This document shows positions 12,623 through 31,938 of a stretch of 36,678 nt of DNA, in pieces. Made by a program: the position numbers and the translations under genes. Under the pieces are notes generated by a model, which was not told the DNA's origin, made no database searches, and saw only the letters and a program-made list of their open reading frames with translations. The first letter of the stretch is position 1, and each line of letters opens with the position of its first letter. Source of the stretch: Desulfobulbaceae bacterium (lineage in GTDB: Bacteria; Desulfobacterota; Desulfobulbia; Desulfobulbales; Desulfobulbaceae); the NCBI GenBank assembly GCA_011391865.1, contig JAABPV010000027.1, positions 1 to 36,678 on the forward strand, given 5' to 3'.

Positions 12623-15103
12623 ATGCTGACTGCCCGACTGTCCAGCCAGTTGCTTCCAGCTCTGGCCGTTCTGCTGCTGCTCGCCGCGAATCCTGCGCCG
12701 TCTCCAGCCCAGCAGTCTGCCTCCGGGCCGCCTGCGGTGTCCAATGACGTGGTGCTGGAAAAAACCGTCGCTCTGTTCTCCCAGCTGCCTGGTCTGACTC
12801 CGCAGGAACTCGAATACGGCAGAAATACGGTCCGCAGTCTGGATTACAATGCCCAGCGGGCGGTGCGGCGGCTCTGCGCTCTGCCCGGAGCCAGCTTCGC
12901 GCAGATCAGGCCGCTGCTGGCGGAAATGACAGAAAACAAGCTATCCTTTGAGCAGCTGCTGGCCTTTGAGGAGTGGGCCAGTCTGCGCGGCGCGTCCATG
13001 TCTCAAGCTGCCGCCGCACTGACCGGTCTGCGCGGCATGAACCGGGAGACCCTCAAAACCTTCCGCACGTTCATCAGGATGGCAGGCGGCATGGACGCAG
13101 GGCTGGCACTACGGTTGCTGCCGCAGCTTAAATCCATGGACGAGACAGTGAACTTCGCCGCGCGGAGTTTGTTCGCCGTCAAAGGCATAGAAGTGCGGCA
13201 GGGGCTGGAGAGCTTGACTGTCCTGCAAAAATTCAGCAAAAAGCAGGCTTGGGCCTACTCTTCCTTTGTCGGAGCGCAGGGTATGACTCCAAACGCGGCT
13301 CTTCAGGCACTGCCGCTCTTCCGGCAGATACAGGACACTGACGCTTGGAATATGCAGTTTTTTTTCAAGCGGACCAAGCCGGACATGAACACAGCTTGGT
13401 CTTGGCTGACCCGCTACTTCACCCAGCCTGTGTCTGAGCAGGAGGCGCAGCATTACAGCATGAGCGCGCAAAACCGCAGTGCCTTGGTCGACGCGCTTTA
13501 CCATGCGGGCGAGGAGGTTGTCTGGCGGATCAACAACCTGCACGCTGTGACCAACGAGTATGGAGCTGAATATTCGCAGGGACAGCTGCAAAGCATGGGC
13601 GCAGGCCAGCTCCAGAGCCTTTTTGACAAGCTCTCTTCGCCCACCAGAGCGCGGTATGGCGGGCAGTTCGCCGCCGCCCGGCAGGCCGGGCAGGGCAAAA
13701 TGATCAGCGTTCTCCGGCAAGCGACCACCGCTGACCGCAGCCAAGTGGCTGAAGATCTGACTTCAGCCAACATCTACGCCCTGCTGGCTCAAGGCAGCGA
13801 GCTGTATGACTCCTCGTTCCGGGACATTCTGGTGCCAATCCTGAAGAAGCGGGTCGCGGCGGCGCATCGGGACAATCTTTTGGTCTTTCTTCAGGCCACT
13901 GATCCCAGCAACCTGCTGGTCTCAAACTTCATCGTCAGTCTCGCCCAGAAAGGCAAACTGACCACTTTTTTCCCCACTGACGCAGGCGAGCAGCAGCGCA
14001 TTCTGGAGCTGGTGGCCTCATCGGCCTTCAAGGACGAAGACTCCGTCCTGCTTTTCTCAGCCACGTTCCGCTACCTGCTCACTGTGCTGGAGCCGTCGGC
14101 CCGGCATTTTCTCATTCAAAAAATGGTGGCGGCAGACAGCGGGCAGGGCAGCTTCAGCAAGCTGATCACCGTTATTCTTCAATATTATATTCAAGAATAT
14201 CAGGAACTGCTCAGTCCTGAATCAACAGTGCTGATTCAGCAGACCATCGCCCGCAACGGGGCTGTTGACCTGCGCCGCTATTTAGTCACGCCCTTTACGC
14301 AGTGGAAGGCGGACAACCAGCTTGGCTCACTTTCCATTTTCCATCCTGATGACGACGGGCGCAGTTCCTTTGTCTCCAACGCCCAGACACTGAGCCGCAA
14401 CGGCTACCGGCTGGCGTTGTCCGAGCAGTACACCTTCGCTTCCAACGCAGCAGAGCGGCAGCGGTTTGAAGCCTTGATCGCACGGGCTGGCAACGGCGGC
14501 TTCGCTGCCCTTTTTGAGGCCATGCTCAGAGAGCCGTTTACTGCCGCTTTTGTAAAAAATATCAACGGGATCACCATTCGGCATTCTGTTCATGTCTACG
14601 GTGGCAAGGAGCGGCAGGAGCGGGTCATGCTGCGTTTTCTGCAGGGCGGTGACGAGATGCTCGCCCAGCGCGGCCACTCCTACTGGCGTTCCGAGCAGAT
14701 CGTTGATCCCGTCAAGCAGCTGCTGGAGAGCCAGCAGATTTCGGAACGGGACATGGCCGCCCGGCAGCGTTTTCTTAGCCTCGGTTCCTGCGGCGGGGTA
14801 AAGGTCTACACCAAGCTGACCCGGCTGTTTGACAGCCATGTGGACATCCTTGCCACCATCGGCACAGGCATGGCAATGATCAATGACCCCTACAACTTGC
14901 ATTTTTTTGAAATCATCGCCAAAAATCCATCTGGCATGAGCTGGGAGGAGCTCGCCCGCAAAACCGCCTTCATTTTCTCTGCCGGTCGGGGCCAAGATTA
15001 CCTCCAGCCCGGTTGTCTGACTGCCATCTTGCATAAGATTTTGGATGAAGACATGAAGCGGCATGGGATCAAGCCCAAGCAAGATGCCGATGATTTGTGG
15101 TGA
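12623..15103 (+). CDS. Large secreted protein, helical repeats plus possible caspase-like C-terminal domain
   Basis: I do not recognise this 826-residue protein as a named family. The N-terminus is a plausible Sec signal (hydrophobic run LPALAVLLLLAA, cleavage possible after A29 in PSPA-QQ). Residues about 45-260 are helical and show degenerate repeats of roughly 35 residues with a recurring pattern such as LPGAS..QIRPLLAEM, LRGAS..QAAAALTGL and VGAQGMTPNAALQALP. The middle is alpha-rich. Near the C-terminus RGHSY (H685) is followed 38 residues later by LGSCGG (C723), after a hydrophobic strand-like segment each time. This is the order and spacing of the His/Cys pair of caspase-fold peptidases. 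A second conserved-looking part follows (ATIGTGMAMINDP). It sits 58 bp after rodA and 12 bp before ispE, so it may be transcribed with either. Peptidase function is inference only. Confidence 0.75.
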   Translation: MLTARLSSQLLPALAVLLLLAANPAPSPAQQSASGPPAVSNDVVLEKTVALFSQLPGLTPQELEYGRNTVRSLDYNAQRAVRRLCALPGASFAQIRPLLAEMTENKLSFEQLLAFEEWASLRGASMSQAAAALTGLRGMNRETLKTFRTFIRMAGGMDAGLALRLLPQLKSMDETVNFAARSLFAVKGIEVRQGLESLTVLQKFSKKQAWAYSSFVGAQGMTPNAALQALPLFRQIQDTDAWNMQFFFKRTKPDMNTAWSWLTRYFTQPVSEQEAQHYSMSAQNRSALVDALYHAGEEVVWRINNLHAVTNEYGAEYSQGQLQSMGAGQLQSLFDKLSSPTRARYGGQFAAARQAGQGKMISVLRQATTADRSQVAEDLTSANIYALLAQGSELYDSSFRDILVPILKKRVAAAHRDNLLVFLQATDPSNLLVSNFIVSLAQKGKLTTFFPTDAGEQQRILELVASSAFKDEDSVLLFSATFRYLLTVLEPSARHFLIQKMVAADSGQGSFSKLITVILQYYIQEYQELLSPESTVLIQQTIARNGAVDLRRYLVTPFTQWKADNQLGSLSIFHPDDDGRSSFVSNAQTLSRNGYRLALSEQYTFASNAAERQRFEALIARAGNGGFAALFEAMLREPFTAAFVKNINGITIRHSVHVYGGKERQERVMLRFLQGGDEMLAQRGHSYWRSEQIVDPVKQLLESQQISERDMAARQRFLSLGSCGGVKVYTKLTRLFDSHVDILATIGTGMAMINDPYNLHFFEIIAKNPSGMSWEELARKTAFIFSAGRGQDYLQPGCLTAILHKILDEDMKRHGIKPKQDADDLW

Positions 15104-17770: not shown

Positions 17771-17800
17771 TGTAGGGGCGGTTCGCGAACCGCCCCTACA
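17771..17800. repeat. Perfect 30-bp palindrome (GTAGGGGCG family)
   Basis: Every base of 17771-17800 is self-complementary around the centre TTCGCGAA; the ends are TGTAGGGGCGG and its complement. It lies 9 bp after the rplY stop. A related palindrome with the same GTAGGGGCG outer arms occurs inside the sulfite reductase gene at 31033-31062, suggesting a dispersed REP/MITE-like family. Confidence 0.9.
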
Positions 17801-22597: not shown

Positions 22598-22716
22598 CGA
22601 GTATCCCTCGGACAAAAGCACGCCCGATGAATGGCCGTGGGGATACTCGATGATTGGTCAGAGGGATACTCGATGAATGGCGGCGGGGATAGGCGATGAT
22701 TTGGAACGGGGATGGG
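22598..22716. repeat. 23-bp tandem repeat, four units, with a flanking inverted copy
   Basis: Four successive 23-bp units start at 22625, 22648, 22671 and 22694, each beginning CGATGA and ending near GGGGATA. A 12-bp segment CGAGTATCCCTC at 22598-22609 is an exact inverted copy of 22661-22672. The gap 22476-22907 has no gene; it holds the DUF4469 promoter, this array and two palindromic repeats. Confidence 0.8.
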
Positions 22717-22732: not shown

Positions 22733-22768
22733 GGGCGGGCAAGCAAGAAAACGTTTGCCTGCCCTACG
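22733..22768. repeat. Dispersed palindromic repeat, copy A (diverged)
   Basis: GGGCGGGCAAGC, a short A-rich loop and GTTTGCCTGCCC, then TACGG, form an imperfect hairpin with the same layout as copies B and C. Confidence 0.65.
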
Positions 22769-22855: not shown

Positions 22856-22910
22856 AGAAGCCGACCTCATTGGCGGGCAAGCAAAAAGACGCTTGCCCAC
22901 CCTACGACTA
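22856..22910. repeat. Dispersed palindromic repeat, copy B
   Basis: This 55-bp unit differs from 24233-24287 (copy C) at only two positions. It contains the stem GGGCAAGC ... GCTTGCCC around an AAAAAGAC-type loop and ends CCTACG. Its last three bases supply the stop codon of the minus-strand two-CW gene. Confidence 0.85.
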
Positions 22911-24201: not shown

Positions 24202-24230
24202 GTGGGTAAATGGCTTTATCGTTTACCCAC
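24202..24230. repeat. Inverted repeat next to repeat copy C
   Basis: GTGGGTAAA (24202-24210) and TTTACCCAC (24222-24230) are perfect 9-bp arms around an 11-nt loop. It abuts copy C, so the two may be one composite element. The gap 24008-24416 holds no gene, only the higBA promoter, these repeats and a possible hemB promoter. Confidence 0.7.
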
Positions 24231-24232
24231 GC

Positions 24233-24287
24233 AGAAGCCGACCTCATTGGTGGGCAAGCAAAAAGACGCTTGCCCACCCTACGGCTA
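24233..24287. repeat. Dispersed palindromic repeat, copy C
   Basis: A 55-bp unit nearly identical to copy B at 22856-22910 (two differences), with the stem GGGCAAGC ... GCTTGCCC and the end CCTACGGCTA. Confidence 0.85.
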
Positions 24288-24329
24288 AGGGCAAAGCAGA
24301 GGCACCCGCTCCTCCCGGCCATGTTCCGC

Positions 24330-24358
24330 TTGCCTTGCCATCAGAAATTGCATACATT
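24330..24358 (+). promoter_or_regulatory. Possible promoter for hemB and the coupled module
   Basis: TTGCCT (24330-24335), a 17-nt spacer and TACATT (24353-24358), each four of six consensus bases, lie 58 nt upstream of the hemB ATG. Confidence 0.4.
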
Positions 24359-24416
24359 GGTGTGCGGCGCACTGTCCTCGTCAAAAAGAACCACTGAACA
24401 ACACAGGAGAAGCGAA

Positions 24417-25397
24417 ATGGTCTTTCCCGAATACCGTCCCCGCCGGATGCGGCGGAATGAGAACTTCCGCGCCATGATCCGTGAAACCCGCTTGGCTGCG
24501 GAGCAGCTTGTTTATCCGCTCTTTGTTATGCCGGGTAAGGGCAAAAAGGAGGAGGTGCCGTCGATGCCGGGCGTGTTCCGCCTGTCCGTGGATCAGCTCA
24601 AGCAGGAGGCCAAAGACTGCCTTGAAGTCGGTGTCCGCTCAGTGATTCTCTTCGGCCTGCCGGAGAAGAAGGACGCGGTCGGCTCCGGTGCTCATGCCAA
24701 GAACGGCATAGTCCAGCAGGCAATCAAGGAGCTGAAGAACACTGCGCCGGATCTCACCGTCATCACCGATGTTTGTCTCTGCGAATACACCGATCACGGG
24801 CACTGCGGCTGCCTTGCGGGCAAAGAGGTGGACAACGACGCGACGCTGGAGCTGCTGGCCAAAACCGCGCTCTCGCACGCTCAGGCCGGGGCGGACATGG
24901 TCGCGCCGTCAGACATGATGGATGGCCGGGTGAGTGAAATCCGCAGCACGCTGGACGAGAACGATTTTCACAATGTGCCGATCATGTCGTATGCGGTCAA
25001 ATACGCCTCGGCCTTCTACGGCCCCTTCCGCGATGCTGCTGATTGTGCGCCGCAGTTTGGCGACCGCCGCAGCTATCAGATGGATCCGGCCAACAGCCGC
25101 GAGGCTCTGCGCGAGGCCACTTTGGATGTGGACGAGGGCGCGGACATCCTGATGGTCAAACCGGCGGTCGCGTATTTGGACATCATCAGCCGCCTGCGCG
25201 ATGAGTTCGACCTGCCCATCGCCGCCTATCACGTCAGTGGGGAATACGCGATGATCAAGGCCGCAGCGGCCAAAGGCTGGATTGACGAACAGCGGGTGAT
25301 GGCCGAGACGCTGCTTTCGATCAGAAGGGCAGGCGCGGACATCATCCTCACCTATTTTGCCAAAGACATGGCAAGACTGCTGCGGGGACAGTCATGA
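24417..25397 (+). CDS. hemB: Delta-aminolevulinic acid dehydratase (porphobilinogen synthase)
   Basis: A 326-residue cytosolic enzyme that condenses two 5-aminolevulinates to porphobilinogen for heme and siroheme. Seen: the cysteine metal-site motif [15 protein letters not shown], the lysine regions [18 protein letters not shown] and DILMVKPA (Schiff-base lysine), and [17 protein letters not shown] 24417 has AGGAGA 8 nt upstream; the longer frame from 24210 runs through repeat copy C and is not coding. The last codons read LLRGQS and the stop overlaps the following ATPase start in ATGA. A decayed second 3' end of hemB lies 4 kb downstream, ending LLRG-stop. Confidence 0.96.
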
Positions 25398-26572
25398 TCC
25401 GCTCGCTGCATTTTGACGGCTTCCGCAGTTTTCCCAGCCGCCGCCAATATGCCCGCAGCCAGAGCCAGCCTTTTCAAGTGCTGGAGCTTGCTCCGCTGAC
25501 TCTGCTGGTCGGGCGGAACAACTCCGGCAAAACCAGCGTCGCTGAATTGCTGTATCGGGTGCTGGCCGGGCTGGCGGGAGCAGGCAAGGAAGCGTTGCCG
25601 CTAAGTGTGAGCGGCCTGCCAGCTGCGGCCAGCTTTCAGGATTTGCTTCCTGCACGGGATGCCAACGCATTTCTTGAGCTGAATATTAAATTTCAGGTAA
25701 AAGACTGTCAGCATCGGCTGGAAGAAATTCTTTACCTGCCGAGCCTGATGCAGGACGATCTCAGGCCGTGGGCCAGAAGCATTCAATGGGATGGTCAAGA
25801 CAGCCTTGTTCCTGAAGGGCCGCTTGAACAAGGTCTTCTGCCGCCTGAAATTCCAGATAGAGCGGCGGTTCAGGAGGCATTCTCCAAGCTGCTCCGCTCC
25901 AGCGTCTGGCTGGGGCCGCTGCGGGAGCCTGTCCCAGAAATCCCGCAACGCAAGGCGCGGCAGCAAAATCAGATTGGCCCGGCAGGACAAAATGCGATTG
26001 AACTGCTGTCTGAAGATGACGAACTGTTTAAGACGGTATCCGATTGGCTGCGTGAACATGCCGGGTTTTCATTGCGCTGGGAGAAAAATTTGGATTTATG
26101 GCGGATGAACACCGTCCGAGGCACAGCGCGAAATATTTCCATCACGCAGGCCGGAGCGGGAATTCATCAGCTTCTCCCAATATTGACCTTGGCGAAATGG
26201 CGGCAGCTTCGCTGCGGTGATGTTCAATTCATTGATGTTGTGCAGCAGCCGGAACTGCATCTGCATGATGCCCTTCAGTCTGCGCTCGGCGATATGTTTA
26301 TTGATGCAGCTCTTGCCGCCGGGCAAGGCGTGACGGTCGTTGAGACGCACGCTGAGGGCTTGCTGCTGCGGGTGCGCAGGCGCATTGCGGAAGGGAAGAT
26401 CAAACCGGGGCAGGTCGGCCTTTACTATGTGGACGACAACCATTCCGGCAGCAGCCTCCGGCGCATTGATCTACGGGAAGACGGTGAAGTTGACTGGTGG
26501 CCTGAAGGAGTTTTTCTCGAATCATTTGAGGAGGTCAAAGCATTGCGCCAAGCGCAGAGGCGGCGGAGCTGA
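25394..26572 (+). CDS. AAA (OLD/AAA_15-like) ATPase, DUF3696 type
   Basis: A 392-residue ATPase. It begins [13 protein letters not shown], and the Walker [10 protein letters not shown] lies near residues 40-48. The C-terminal ATPase half has [12 protein letters not shown] (signature-like), [17 protein letters not shown] (Walker B region) and [17 protein letters not shown], then a DUF3696-like tail with VDWWPEGVF. It is coupled to hemB by an ATGA overlap and precedes the TOPRIM-like gene by 1 nt. Base composition is visibly less GC-rich than hemB. By family it is probably the sensor/motor of a defence module; this is inference. Confidence 0.87.
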
Positions 26573-26573
26573 C

Positions 26574-27539
26574 ATGCGTTTTTCGATAGAACTGCCCAGC
26601 AATGACAGCATCACGCCGGTTTGGAATGATCCTGATGCGCTGGAGACATTGGACCGTCTGGTTTGCCGGGCTGATGATGCGGCGCATGAGATTTTGCTGC
26701 GCGATGCTGACCTTGTTGCTGACAGCCGCTGGATTGTTGAGGCGCGACAGGCAACGCAGACCAAGCTGAAGTCCTTGCTTGAATTGGCCAGAATCTCGGC
26801 TTGGACCGCTGCGGAAGCAAAAACAAAAAAGTGGCAGATTTCAACCGCAGGTGAAGCAAAGCGGGCCTTGCGCATTGCCAACACACCGCTTAAAGTGTTG
26901 GTTGAAAATTCGTTGCGTGATGGTGCCTTATTGGAAGTGGCAGTGCGTCTTTTGGGCAAAGAAACGCTGCGGCAGCTTTGGCTTGAGCCTCCTGTGCCAG
27001 CGGCGATTGAAGTTGCTCATGCCGGAGGAACTGGTGATATGCCTCCTTTCATTACAAGGGAATGTGCCAAAGCTCAGGAAAGGGATTTGCCTGTGCGGAT
27101 GATTGTTGTTGCAGATTCAGACCGTTCGGCTCCTAATCAGCCGCTTTCCGGCAAGCCGAAAGAGATTCAGGACAAGGCGGCGGAATGTGGAGTTTCCTGC
27201 TTCATTCTTAGCAAGCGTGAAGGCGAGAATTATCTTCCTGATTTTCATTGGCAGGCCGAAATAAAGCGCGATCAGAGGAATCCTTCATGGAAAGACAATA
27301 TCAGCAATATTATTGTGATGCCATCCGAAGAAAGAGATTACCGTGATATGGAGGAGATGAAACTGAAGCAAATTCCGAAGCAATACGTTGCAAACCGTCC
27401 CTATCACCTTGAAGAATTTCTGAAACGAGTCAAACAGGCGCAGAGCAGCGAGCTTGACGCTATGGGTGCTGATCTGCGCAGACGTGATCACACTGAAGAT
27501 TTGACTACCATCCTTGAACTGATCGAGCAGGAGCGTTGA
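26574..27539 (+). CDS. TOPRIM/OLD-like nuclease candidate
   Basis: A 321-residue protein. The C-terminal two-thirds show the layout of a TOPRIM fold: a first strand ending in an acidic residue (LKVLVENSLRDG, E111), a glycine-rich HAGGTGDM (149-156), the paired aspartates VVADSDRS (D181, D183), and KREGENYLP (214-222), like the ReiENYL motif of OLD-type and AriB-like proteins. The N-terminal 100 residues are helical. Neither a signal peptide nor a membrane segment is seen. ATG 26574 lies 1 nt after the ATPase stop; the longer open frame upstream overlaps the ATPase gene and is not chosen. With the ATPase it resembles the two-protein PARIS arrangement. Catalytic assignment is by motif reading only. 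Confidence 0.72.
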   Translation: MRFSIELPSNDSITPVWNDPDALETLDRLVCRADDAAHEILLRDADLVADSRWIVEARQATQTKLKSLLELARISAWTAAEAKTKKWQISTAGEAKRALRIANTPLKVLVENSLRDGALLEVAVRLLGKETLRQLWLEPPVPAAIEVAHAGGTGDMPPFITRECAKAQERDLPVRMIVVADSDRSAPNQPLSGKPKEIQDKAAECGVSCFILSKREGENYLPDFHWQAEIKRDQRNPSWKDNISNIIVMPSEERDYRDMEEMKLKQIPKQYVANRPYHLEEFLKRVKQAQSSELDAMGADLRRRDHTEDLTTILELIEQER

Positions 27540-27545
27540 CGATAT

Positions 27546-29315
27546 ATGAATACACAGCAAAAAGAAGACGGACCGGAAATCAGCCCCAGCGTCGTGTTTC
27601 TCTACGACCTCCTGAAATGGGTGCGGCAGGGGCGCATCCGGGTGCCCGCTTTTCAACGCTCTTTTGTCTGGACCAGACAGAACATGCTTGATTTGTTTGA
27701 TTCAGTGCGCTGGAGCTATCCCATAGGAACGCTGCTCTTCTGGCGATCGTCGGTGGCGACTGCCAGTCCCCATGTCCATTTCGGCCCTTTTGACCTGTCT
27801 CAGATCAAGTCAAATGACACATTGCTGCTCTTGGACGGCCAGCAGCGACTCACCACGCTCGCCGGTGTGCTGCTGCAAAAGTCTTCCGATATGACTTTTT
27901 CTGACCATGACGAAGACCCTGGGCGCTGGAACATCTATTTTGATGCCAGCACGGATAAGGGTGGTAGCTTCATGCACATGCCAAATGGAGAGCAGCCGAA
28001 GGTCTGGCAAGTTCCTTTGTATCAATTAAGAGACACCGGAAGTCTCTTTCAAGCAGTTGGAAATATATTCTCAGTCGATGAAAAGAAGTTTGAAGAAGCT
28101 GGGCGTACTAAAGAATTTGTAGCTGAACAACTTCAATCAATTGCGCGGGCTTTGCAATCCTACAAAATTCCAATCGTAGAATTTGTTACCGATGATCTGA
28201 ATTTAGCGGTGGAAAGCTTCACCCGGTTAAACCGGAAAGGAGTGTCCATTGGTGCGGATGAGATGTTTTCAGCCCTCACGTATCAAGCTGGAAACGCGGG
28301 CAAGCGGTTTCATATTGCACGGGAAATTGACCGGACATTAAAAGAAATCAAAGAGATCGGCTTTGGCGAAGTGGAGCGGGTTCTGGTACTGCGGGCTTTT
28401 TTGGTTGCAGTCGGGCTTCATCCATATCGAGCTGACTGGCCGAAGCTCAGTGAAACCGCACAAACGGATGTCGCCAATCAACTCCCGGAAGCGATGGAGC
28501 GGGCGCGGTCAGGACTGATCCGGGCAATAGAATTTCTGCGGGAGGAAAGCGTTTATAACGCCAGAATGCTACCCTACGGCCTGCACCTTGTGGGCTTGAG
28601 CGCATGGCTGGGTGAGGATGAAAAACCATCCTCAGAAGCAAAACGTCTTCTCCGCCGTTGGTTTTGGCTGACCGGCTTTGCAAGCTGGTTCGGACAGGGA
28701 AATCCAGCTAGATATGCCGCCGGGCTGGCGGAGCTGCGTGACACGGCCCGAAAAGTATGCAAAGAAGGGATGCCGGTGCCTGATGAGCTGGAACATCTTC
28801 CTTGGACAACTCCGACAGCACCTTTTCCTGAACGTTATGATTTGCGAAGTGCTCGTGTGCGTACCTTGCTCTGTCTTTTGGCCAAGGACGGCGTGAGCAA
28901 TCTCGACGATTCTCATAAAAATGCGCAGGAGATCGCAGAAGATTTTGTCCGCAACGGGCCGGAAGCAATGCGTATTATCTGGAGCGTGACAAAGGCCGTT
29001 GCGCCGCTTTCCTCCAGCCCTGCCAACCGCATGTTCGATGTGTTCGGGGAGGAACGCGGGCAAGCCCGCAGTTTATTGAGAAATCATAATGTCAGCAGCG
29101 GTTTTCTTGAGTCGCATTTGTTGCCATCACCCATCAATGACGCTCTTCAGGAAAAAGAGTCCATGCAGAAAGCCCTTAAAGATCGTCTTGATCAAATGAT
29201 TGAACGGGAACTGTCATTTATGAATGAACTTAAACTTACGCCCCCTTCAGCTCGGACTGGTTCAATAACGATTGATCAGGAAGATGATGCTCCGCTTCCT
29301 GATGAGGAGGATTGA
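27546..29315 (+). CDS. DUF262 (GmrSD-like) protein, 589 residues
   Basis: The N-terminal DUF262 domain is clear: [22 protein letters not shown] (FQR at 36-38), YPIGTLLFW, and [13 protein letters not shown] with D97-GQQR. The motif [22 protein letters not shown] follows near residue 225-245. The rest is a long helical region ending in an acidic tail (DEED). I do not see a clear HNH/DUF1524 nuclease motif of the GmrD type, so a complete GmrSD enzyme is not supported. It begins 6 nt after the TOPRIM-like gene stop, making the three genes one operon. DUF262 proteins use NTPs and appear in restriction of modified phage DNA (GmrSD) and other defence loci. Confidence 0.85.
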
Positions 29316-29345: not shown

Positions 29346-29508
29346 TTCTACGTCCTTTTGCCTGACGCGGACTGTGCGCCGCAGCTATCAAATGGACCCG
29401 GCCAACAGCCGCGAGGCTCTGCGCGAGGCCACCTTGGATGTGGACGAGGGCGCGGATATCATCCTGACTTACTTCGCCAAAGATATGGCGAGGCTGCTGC
29501 GGGGTTAA
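29346..29508 (+). pseudogene. hemB (remnant): Decayed second 3' end of hemB
   Basis: From about 29371 (possibly 29346) to the TAA at 29506-29508 the DNA matches the 3' third of hemB. Two deletions are visible, each between short direct repeats of the intact gene: 17 bp between two CGCCGCAG copies, and 195 bp between two GGCGCGGACATC copies (25137 and 25332), which removes the Schiff-base lysine segment. Over the 42 aligned codons after the first deletion I count 12 differences, all synonymous. It is therefore a once-functional allele rather than a fresh copy, and marks the right edge of the inserted module. The frame ends LLRG-stop. Confidence 0.9.
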
Positions 29509-29589: not shown

Positions 29590-31938
29590 TTATGCCTTCT
29601 CAATCAGCACGGCCCATTGCGCCCCGCGTTGCTCCTGGCTGAGAATGCGGTGGCCTTCTGAGCGCACTGAGCCGGGCACGTTCTCAATCGGCTCGCCGTC
29701 GTCAAGAATGATCTCCAAGGTTTCGCCGGAATTCATGCAGGAAAGCATGACTTTAGCGCGGGCGAAGTTGAGCGGGCATTTCACTCCACTCAGGTCTTTA
29801 AAGCAGTCAGGCCGACGCTGCGTCTCGGCTGGAGAAGAGGCTGTTGGCGGCTGCGCTGGTTCGGCAGGCGCGACGGTTGCACTCGGAAAACGCATGGTGC
29901 TGTCCATGCTCTGATACAACGCAAGCATGGCCTGGGCGAGAGCGGCAGCTTTGTCCGCGTGCTGGCGCAGCTCGCGGCCCTCCCTGAGCAGATCGACCGG
30001 CAAGCGGTGTTCTGCGCTGACAAGGCCGCTGTCTATGAAATGCTTGGTAAAAAGCTGCGCCACCTCTTCTTCGCTCCGCGCCTCCTCGCCCTGCGTCACC
30101 AAGAGCATCCGCGCCGAGCGGAAGACCAGCTCGCGCAGCACGGCCTCGGCGGTGCTGTTGCTCTCCAGCGTGCGCAGCAACTTCTTGATTTCCTTCTCAT
30201 CCACCTCAATCATGTCGTACATGCCCGCCGAGCACTCAGCCCGGCCTAAGTCCTTGACTGAGAAAAGCTGCTCCGCGCCGTGGTCAAAGTAGTAGTTCTT
30301 GTCCTCCTCAAAGGGCGGAATCTGGTTGTATTTCTCCGCGCAGAGAGTAGCGATAGCCTCCTTGCCGCCGTCGCGCCACCAGCTGTTGAAGCTGTCCACT
30401 GGATGCGCGGCGCAGAGACGCAGCGCGTCAACCACAAAGCGCGGCAGGTCATAGGAATGCACCCAGCCGACCGCCTCGCCCAGCCTGAGCTGGCCTTGGC
30501 TGAGGCCGCCGTTGCCAAGGACGTTGTAGGTCGGCACCGCGCGGCCTTGCACGTGGCGCACCTTGCCGTGAAAGGCGAGGTCGCCCAGCCAGTGGTTGGC
30601 GCAGGAATTGGGGCAGCCGCTGATACGGATCTGCACGTTGTCAGGTAGGCGGAAGTCCACCTTGTCCAAGGCCTTAAAGATGGCCTGCGCTGCCGGGCGT
30701 GGCCGGTTAATGCCGACTTGGCAGGTCTGTGCACCCGTGCAGGGGACAAGGCTGGCGTAAATCACCGGCTTGCCGCTCAGGGTCGTGCAGGCGGCAAGCA
30801 CGCTATGTAGATTCGGCAGGAACTGTTCCGGGATGTTGCGCAGGTAGAGATTCTGATCAGTGCCGCAGCGCAGGGTGTTCTCGCCAAAAGAGCCGAGGAA
30901 ATCGGCCAAGCGCAGGCAGTCGTCCGGCGAGAGATCGCCCAGCAGCAAGGGCAGGCGGACAGCGCAGAGGCCCGCCTGCTTCTGGGCGGTCACATGCCGT
31001 TCGCGCCAGAGGTCGTAGCCTTGGCCAGCTGTAGTAGGGGCGAAAGATTTTTCGCCCCTACTGTCCTCATTGTCTATCGGTATAATCTGCAAGCCCGGCG
31101 CACCTTGGGCCAGCACCTTGGCGAACTCCTCCTCGTAGAGTTTGCGGAAAGCGGCCTCGCCCATGTCCTCATGGATGAGGAACTTGATTCGGCTGCGGTG
31201 TTTGTTCTTGCGGTTGCCGTGGACGTGAAAGAGGTTCTTGATCGCCCTGACCGCGTGATAGACCTGCGGCTCCGGCAGAAATTCTTGCAGAAGCACGGCG
31301 ACCTTTGGCCGCGCACCCAAGCCGCCGCCCGCATAAAGCTGATAGCCGCGCTCGCCCGCCGCGTTCAGGCAGGCGATGAAGCCGATGTCCTGCACGAAAA
31401 TGAAGGCCGCGTCGTCCGGGCGCGAAGTGAAGCCAGCCTTGATCTTGCGCGGCATGTCCCAGCTGTCCGGCTCGGCGCACATGCGGCTGGTCAGGGCCAC
31501 GGCAGCGGGCTGCACGTCAAAGACCTCCGCAGGACTGATGCCGGAGTCCGGGTTGGCGACAATGTTGCGGATGGTGTTGCCGCCGCCGCCAAGGCTGGAC
31601 AGCCCGGCCTCGCGCAGCAGCCGCAGGACAAGGACAAGGTGCTCCTCCGGCACGCCGTGGAGCTGGATTTCCGCCCGCGTGGTGACATGCACCCGGCTGT
31701 CGCCGTATTTGCGGGCCAGCTCGCCTGCGGCGGCCAGCTGCTGCGGCGTGATTATGCCGCCTGCGCAGCGGATGCGGAACATGTAGGTCGTGTAGTTGCG
31801 CTCCAAATAAACGCCCATCTTCACGCGCTTGGCAGTGAAGGCGGTCTCGTGCAGCCGCCCGGCGCGGAACTCAGCCAAGTCCTGCTCAAAGCGGCGGATG
31901 TCGGCCTCCAGCGAGGCGGGTATCTCGTAGTGCAGCAT
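29590..31938 (-). CDS. Siroheme sulfite/nitrite reductase fused to a TusA-like domain
   Basis: A 782-residue protein. Residues about 1-480 are a hemoprotein-type sulfite/nitrite reductase: ferredoxin-like halves (YMFRIRCAGGIITPQQL, SRVHVTTRAEIQLHGV), and the siroheme/4Fe-4S ligands C400-x5-C406 and C442-x3-C446 (SGCPNSCANHW). A long helical linker follows. The last 65 residues are a TusA/SirA-like sulfur-carrier domain with the conserved cysteine C721 in KCPLNFARAK. ATG 31938 has AAAGGAGGAGA just upstream; the frame continues to 32121 but lacks support. Residues 293-302 are encoded by a palindromic repeat. Role inferred: assimilatory or sulfur-transfer-linked reduction in the cytoplasm; nitrite versus sulfite cannot be decided from sequence. 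Confidence 0.9.
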   Translation of the reverse strand: MLHYEIPASLEADIRRFEQDLAEFRAGRLHETAFTAKRVKMGVYLERNYTTYMFRIRCAGGIITPQQLAAAGELARKYGDSRVHVTTRAEIQLHGVPEEHLVLVLRLLREAGLSSLGGGGNTIRNIVANPDSGISPAEVFDVQPAAVALTSRMCAEPDSWDMPRKIKAGFTSRPDDAAFIFVQDIGFIACLNAAGERGYQLYAGGGLGARPKVAVLLQEFLPEPQVYHAVRAIKNLFHVHGNRKNKHRSRIKFLIHEDMGEAAFRKLYEEEFAKVLAQGAPGLQIIPIDNEDSRGEKSFAPTTAGQGYDLWRERHVTAQKQAGLCAVRLPLLLGDLSPDDCLRLADFLGSFGENTLRCGTDQNLYLRNIPEQFLPNLHSVLAACTTLSGKPVIYASLVPCTGAQTCQVGINRPRPAAQAIFKALDKVDFRLPDNVQIRISGCPNSCANHWLGDLAFHGKVRHVQGRAVPTYNVLGNGGLSQGQLRLGEAVGWVHSYDLPRFVVDALRLCAAHPVDSFNSWWRDGGKEAIATLCAEKYNQIPPFEEDKNYYFDHGAEQLFSVKDLGRAECSAGMYDMIEVDEKEIKKLLRTLESNSTAEAVLRELVFRSARMLLVTQGEEARSEEEVAQLFTKHFIDSGLVSAEHRLPVDLLREGRELRQHADKAAALAQAMLALYQSMDSTMRFPSATVAPAEPAQPPTASSPAETQRRPDCFKDLSGVKCPLNFARAKVMLSCMNSGETLEIILDDGEPIENVPGSVRSEGHRILSQEQRGAQWAVLIEKA
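31033..31062. repeat. Palindromic repeat inside the reductase coding frame
   Basis: AGTAGGGGCGAAA (31033-31045) and its exact complement (31050-31062) are 13-bp arms around a 4-nt loop. It is 30 bp long, so it keeps the frame and is read as 10 residues around GEKSFAPT. The outer arms match the family at 17771-17800. Confidence 0.88.

Follow-up and report, generated by a model that had tools for sequence, protein, structure and literature searches.

The gene for a NirA-like nitrite/sulfite reductase in a member of the cable bacteria very probably carries a lineage-only copy of a double-foot REP palindrome, of a type associated with REP-associated tyrosine transposases (RAYTs), that replaced about 12 codons of an interdomain linker in frame. 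The copy lies on the minus strand at 31033-31062 of the window, i.e. of the whole 36,678-nucleotide stretch of DNA analysed (contig JAABPV010000027.1). It would be one of roughly fifty RAYT-associated double-foot REP copies (5' GTAG, stem, 3' CTAC) in this genome, and would have displaced about 12 linker codons in a register that keeps the TAG of GTAG out of frame. RAYT, a HUH/Tyr single-strand nuclease, would have spread the family, as its association with the repeats suggests, and the REP-encoded peptide itself is probably without function. That REPs can occur in frame within genes and within the transposase is already published (PMC3733652, PMC6006769); what is added here is the cable-bacterium host, the comparison of orthologues, and replacement instead of insertion.

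The palindrome and its host gene

The palindrome reads AGTAGGGGCGAAA-GATT-TTTCGCCCCTACT, its arms complementary at 13 of 13 positions around a loop of 4 nt, and its 30 bp include a 1-bp outer extension of a core 28-mer (31034-31061). At the base of the stem GTAG is followed by GGGGC, which pairs with GCCCC in consecutive G-C pairs, and the folded RNA has an energy of -22 kcal/mol (z -7.1) that none of 200 shuffled sequences equalled. The minus-strand codons AGT AGG GGC GAA AAA TCT TTC GCC CCT ACT specify SRGEKSFAPT, residues 293-302 of a 782-residue protein (29593-31938, minus strand, ATG start, with the stop codon at 29590-29592). The preliminary description of a 30-bp hairpin with perfect 13-bp arms, translated as ten residues with the frame unbroken, is therefore confirmed, and the match that it drew between the outer arms and an intergenic palindrome at 17771-17800 is also correct; this second family copy, TGTAGGGGCGGTTCGCGAACCGCCCCTACA, has the GTTCGCGAAC core subtype. 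Against an expectation of 0.15, the window has four occurrences of the end motif GTAGGGGCG, all of them at the ends of these two palindromes.

The host protein consists of two NIR_SIR halves and a C-terminal TusA domain, and its nearest models are of the NirA type. The alignment with NirA (1zj8) takes in residues 51-279 and 315-473, so that the palindrome falls in the linker between the halves, and residues 293-302 are mostly coil in an AlphaFold model built from 42 sequences (mean pLDDT 87). With a dN/dS of 0.14 against the nearest congener, G002, this siroheme nitrite/sulfite-reductase-like gene is otherwise intact and under purifying selection. The REP residues are probably tolerated, while purifying selection on the gene persists, because the linker is a coil between domains.

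A dispersed family of palindromes

The source genome (G000) is a draft of 2.8 Mb in 87 contigs, 95% complete, the C numbers below denoting its contigs; the named congeners found with the reductase belong to Candidatus Electronema, freshwater cable bacteria. The core 28-mer of the family has the form GTAGGGGCG-N10-CGCCCCTAC and is present in 16 exact fixed-length copies, which with one 27-mer make 17 perfect palindromes, as against none in the reversed control; when up to three mismatches are allowed (<=3), 65 places are found versus 4 in the control. These counts, together with the excess of end motifs in the window, rule out a chance palindrome. The core 28-mer of the reductase copy recurs unchanged at C12:44051, C22:10101, C43:17807 and C75:72685. 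A slightly looser pattern gives 27 copies in the source genome and 13, 10, 8 and 2 in its congeners. Over the whole order the palindrome is present in 12 of 116 genomes. Two other families have this 28-mer too, a patchy distribution such as a mobile or transferred repeat would be expected to show. A set of 79 related loci (380 kb) had no palindrome outside the known intragenic sites. The sequence flanking the copies extends the pairing by a mean outer match of 1.33 bp, compared with 0.44 in shuffles (maximum 0.98 in 2000); the copies thus tend to the centre of inverted repeats, which implies that the family either favors palindromic sites or arose in them.

Translated copies in other genes

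The preliminary description called for a genome-wide map of the palindromes and a count of those within genes. Among 49 distinct copies examined in the source genome, a set that falls about 15 weaker copies short of the whole, five are found within long conserved genes, where each is read in frame as ten residues. Besides the reductase copy these are in hrpA (CRGSSRTAPT, between the Pfam domains HA2_C and OB_NTP_bind), mutL (LGAKDFSPLH, between DNA_mis_repair and MutL_C), purL (VGAIHELPLR, between AIRS_C and FGAR-AT_PurM_N) and an RHS-repeat gene (again VGAIHELPLR). Their translation uses only the two registers in which the TAG of GTAG is out of frame. Coding density is usually ~85%; at this assumed density, five intragenic copies out of 49 point to a strong loss of such copies, of which these would be the survivors.

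Four of the five, namely those in the reductase, hrpA, mutL and purL, have an interdomain position, and this, with the stability of the hairpin, could be taken to favor a functional element, either an mRNA hairpin that pauses translation between domains or a peptide that adds a binding surface. Such a function is improbable: the host genes are unrelated, the element is read in two registers to give differing peptides, and an interdomain position is also expected from selection against harm. Nor is an assembly artefact at the repeat at all probable, although the genome is a draft of many contigs and the family is repeated. Both flanks of the reductase copy belong to one gene in one frame, and in-frame copies stand at the same place in mutL and purL of G000 and G003, which are separate assemblies. 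The mutL element is present in these two genomes and absent in G004 and G001.

The purL genes of E. aureum (G003 C10; L207, L217) are two copies with 94-97% likeness to the G000 protein, whereas its reductase is only 75% alike. The purL linker of G001 (L214, C69) holds another repeat-like peptide, APAWCAHQVSVGVPTKF, that is partly repeated; on this account the purL site seems to be a hotspot.

Replacement of native linker codons

An alignment of the reductase with its relatives had been expected to show an insertion of 10-12 residues at 291-303, and no added length is seen there. The linker from VLAQG to RLPLLL has 48 residues in the source genome against 50 in all four congeners, whose orthologous reductases are 74-80% identical and all without the palindrome; the linkers of Electrothrix aarhusensis and of a Desulfobacterales MAG likewise have 50 residues. 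It follows that 10 codons now stand in place of about 12 native ones, and the net result in the reductase is a length-neutral replacement (~36 bp out, 30 bp in). Pure insertion is rejected as a net description, the linker being 48 residues versus 50 in relatives. The preliminary description would have been undone by palindrome-free homologues both equally long and similar at this place, and only the first half of this is found: the homologues are equally long (in fact two residues longer) but dissimilar in three of the four congeners. The reductase copy is, as far as these sequences indicate, lineage-only, gained after the split from the nearest sequenced congener, and the youngest intragenic copy by the criteria of a perfect palindrome and absence from all congeners, applied with one genome of the species.

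The remaining congener, G002, has at this site a native segment, NLGREFSLAPLT, that resembles the element: its DNA alignment scores above 99.9% of 2319 windows of that gene and its peptide above 98.7%. It matches the ends of the element (GGGC and GCGCC-CT-ACT) and keeps residues that are common to the other congeners. As the resemblance occurs in one of four relatives and was found after looking, it is a lead and not proof; a like resemblance was sought in the HrpA outgroups and none was seen.

Lengths at the other sites vary. The HrpA stretch that holds the element is 72 residues long, as is its counterpart in four outgroups; in G001 the hrpA site is occupied by a longer GTAG..CTAC element, and HrpA there is 15 residues longer. 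The purL stretch with the short element, in G000 and in one G003 copy, has 44 and 42 codons versus 40-41 in outgroups; the second G003 purL has a 71-bp inverted REP pair with the same left junction, 53 codons in all and 12 residues more than outgroups.

The replacement would have come about by one of two routes, template switching to a REP copy elsewhere or insertion with loss of native sequence. In the former, short matches would have let a strand in the course of replication move onto the other REP copy and, once it had copied this, return, so that native sequence was replaced with no net gain. This templated route, to which we give a little less than an even chance, is favored by the length neutrality in the reductase and HrpA and by the G002 segment that is already like the element and matches its ends; against it are the post hoc nature of that resemblance, its restriction to one relative, its absence in the HrpA outgroups, and the fact that template switching is here read from sequence resemblance. 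The second route, in which RAYT inserted the 28-30 bp element and ~36 bp of native linker were then lost by selection or chance, is a plausible possibility that falls somewhat short of probable. RAYTs and REPs are present and linked, and the longer purL and HrpA proteins demonstrate that added length occurs. However, a second event is needed in each length-conserved gene, and a reductase copy that is still perfect and lineage-specific leaves little time for two events. A broader proposal is rather unlikely, namely that the main entry of such REPs into genes is through short templated replacement of host sequence that by chance is like them, and not through transposition, with the effect that proteins acquire REP-encoded peptides at unchanged length.

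REP-associated tyrosine transposases

A six-frame motif scan of loci found the palindrome in frame within Y1/HUH transposase genes of G001, G003, G024 and G092, directly after the HUH motif. All four palindrome-bearing transposases match the NCBIfam family REP_Tyr_transpos (REP-associated tyrosine transposase); three of the four loci were chosen for their palindromes and are therefore not independent. A profile made from these four sequences recovered an intact RAYT of 183 residues in the source genome (C15:13531-14082), which a Pfam Y1_Tnp search of that genome had missed, finding only a gene at C4:19470 (L046). The C15 protein has the motifs HFH (81-83), WQ..E..R and REYI (164), and its W145, Q146 and R155 have the spacing, 1 and 10, of W94, Q95 and R104, described as the GTAG-reading residues in E. 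coli (PMC6006769). Palindromes of the family lie at 14112, 30 bp upstream of the start, and at 14410, within 1 kb of the gene. A nested palindrome, GTAGGGGCC-GTAAGGGCAATTCATGAATTGCCCTTAC-GGCCCCTAC, is read in frame within the gene as residues 92-107, between HFH and REYI. The C15 RAYT would be expected to bind or cut single-stranded GTAGGGGC..GCCCCTAC DNA. Weaker RAYT-like matches occur in C53 and C26 of the source genome, with family members within ~500 bp.

Two further observations concern these loci. At L124 1660-1710 (G000 C15 ~13764), inside the RAYT gene, one palindrome lies at the exact centre of another. The L046 RAYT on C4 is flanked by classical REP pairs, GTAGGGCGCGG..CCGCGCC / GGTGCGC..GCGCACCCTAC, which are of a different REP type.

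Relation to known repeats

The reductase palindrome fits the double-foot REPs of TnpA_Y1 (RAYT) subclass 2.4, an assignment made by sequence features, apart from any tree. The reductase copy and the other exact copies have GTAG...CTAC feet (defined for the subclass as 5' GT[AG]G, 3' C[TC]AC), and the other subclass 2.4 double-foot features that were tested are all found: the G-C stem base, dispersal, a RAYT at <1 kb, an in-frame REP between HUH and Tyr, and the W/Q/R residues. The upstream copy and the nested in-frame copy at the C15 RAYT are a mark of this subclass. Double-foot REPs of this subclass were described by Quentin et al. (2018, PMC6006769), who name loss of the central part of an inverted pair as a possible origin for them. 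As described there they share with the present family the GTAG/CTAC ends, the G-C stem base, the dispersal and a RAYT with adjacent and internal in-frame REPs; the present case differs from that account in its cable-bacterium host, the copies in housekeeping genes, the length-neutral exchange of codons and the nested palindrome in the RAYT. REPINs consist of two REPs in inverted orientation, and spread by RAYTs has been proposed for them; Bertels and Rainey (2011, PMC3116915) report that long single-REP palindromes originate in deletions between the two. Unlike the REPIN pairs of that report, the short palindrome is the commoner form here, and pairs of 71-77 bp were matched only in G003. Direct derivation of the short palindrome from a collapsed REP pair is plausible from these papers and from the same-site pairs in purL and hrpA, and is not claimed since the core sequences differ.

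Both GTAG and CGTC REPs have been reported to be translated inside genes, many of them for DNA repair (Di Nocera et al. 2013, PMC3733652). The GTAG REPs of that report resemble the present family in their GTAG tag, their link to RAYT, and their mostly intergenic location with some copies in frame in repair and RNA-helicase genes, a gene list that the mutL and hrpA copies fit. They differ in having GTAG at a single end and unpaired; the present element is tagged at either end, its two tags pair with each other, and the strict definition of a GTAG REP therefore fails. The same report treats RPE-4 and RPE-6 of Rickettsia as CGTC REPs, and the CGTC superfamily as without association to a transposase gene.

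The preliminary description had likened the palindrome to the Rickettsia palindromic elements (RPEs), which insert peptides into proteins. The likeness holds insofar as both are palindromes in frame within functional proteins, here a dispersed, mobile-type one in several conserved genes, and it fails as to an inserted peptide. RPEs add residues, have another sequence (RPE-4/-6 being of the CGTC type) and have no RAYT association. With GTAG and not CGTC feet, a cognate RAYT, no added length and a host far from Rickettsia, an RPE is a scarcely credible reading, and membership is rejected; the GTAG/CTAC feet and the cognate RAYT in the genome place the palindrome with the GTAG REPs. A literature search by repeat sequence gave no paper recognisably on this repeat, and one combining cable bacteria and REP found no cable-bacterium paper.

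Other features of the window

A single-foot GTAG REP-like hairpin of another subtype, GTAG followed by GGTGGGCAAGC..GCTTGCCCGCC, lies at 22874-22906 on the minus strand. Similar single-foot hairpins lie near 22736-22768 and 24251-24283, two of the three within 55-nt repeats that are 96% alike, and 22610-22701 holds a tandem array of some four 23-bp units (type GGGATACTCGATGATTGG). Three genes at 25394-29315 match A, B and C of the PADLOC candidate defence system PDC-M55 (an AAA ATPase with DUF3696, an unknown protein and GmrSD_N). On one side of them is hemB (24210-25397) and on the other a stretch (29377-29504) that repeats the 3' end of hemB in part, an arrangement which suggests that a defence block was inserted and the end of hemB duplicated in the process.

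Implications

How REPs multiply, and whether RAYT transposition is the route, are still unsettled in the field. The Electronema genomes, with ~2 to 27 exact copies each and intact RAYTs, offer natural before-and-after pictures in which a given gene site is vacant, holds one element or holds a longer pair, and the length-neutral exchange provides a clue to the REP mechanism that can be tested. For annotation, it follows that odd linker residues in enzymes of these genomes can be repeat-encoded.
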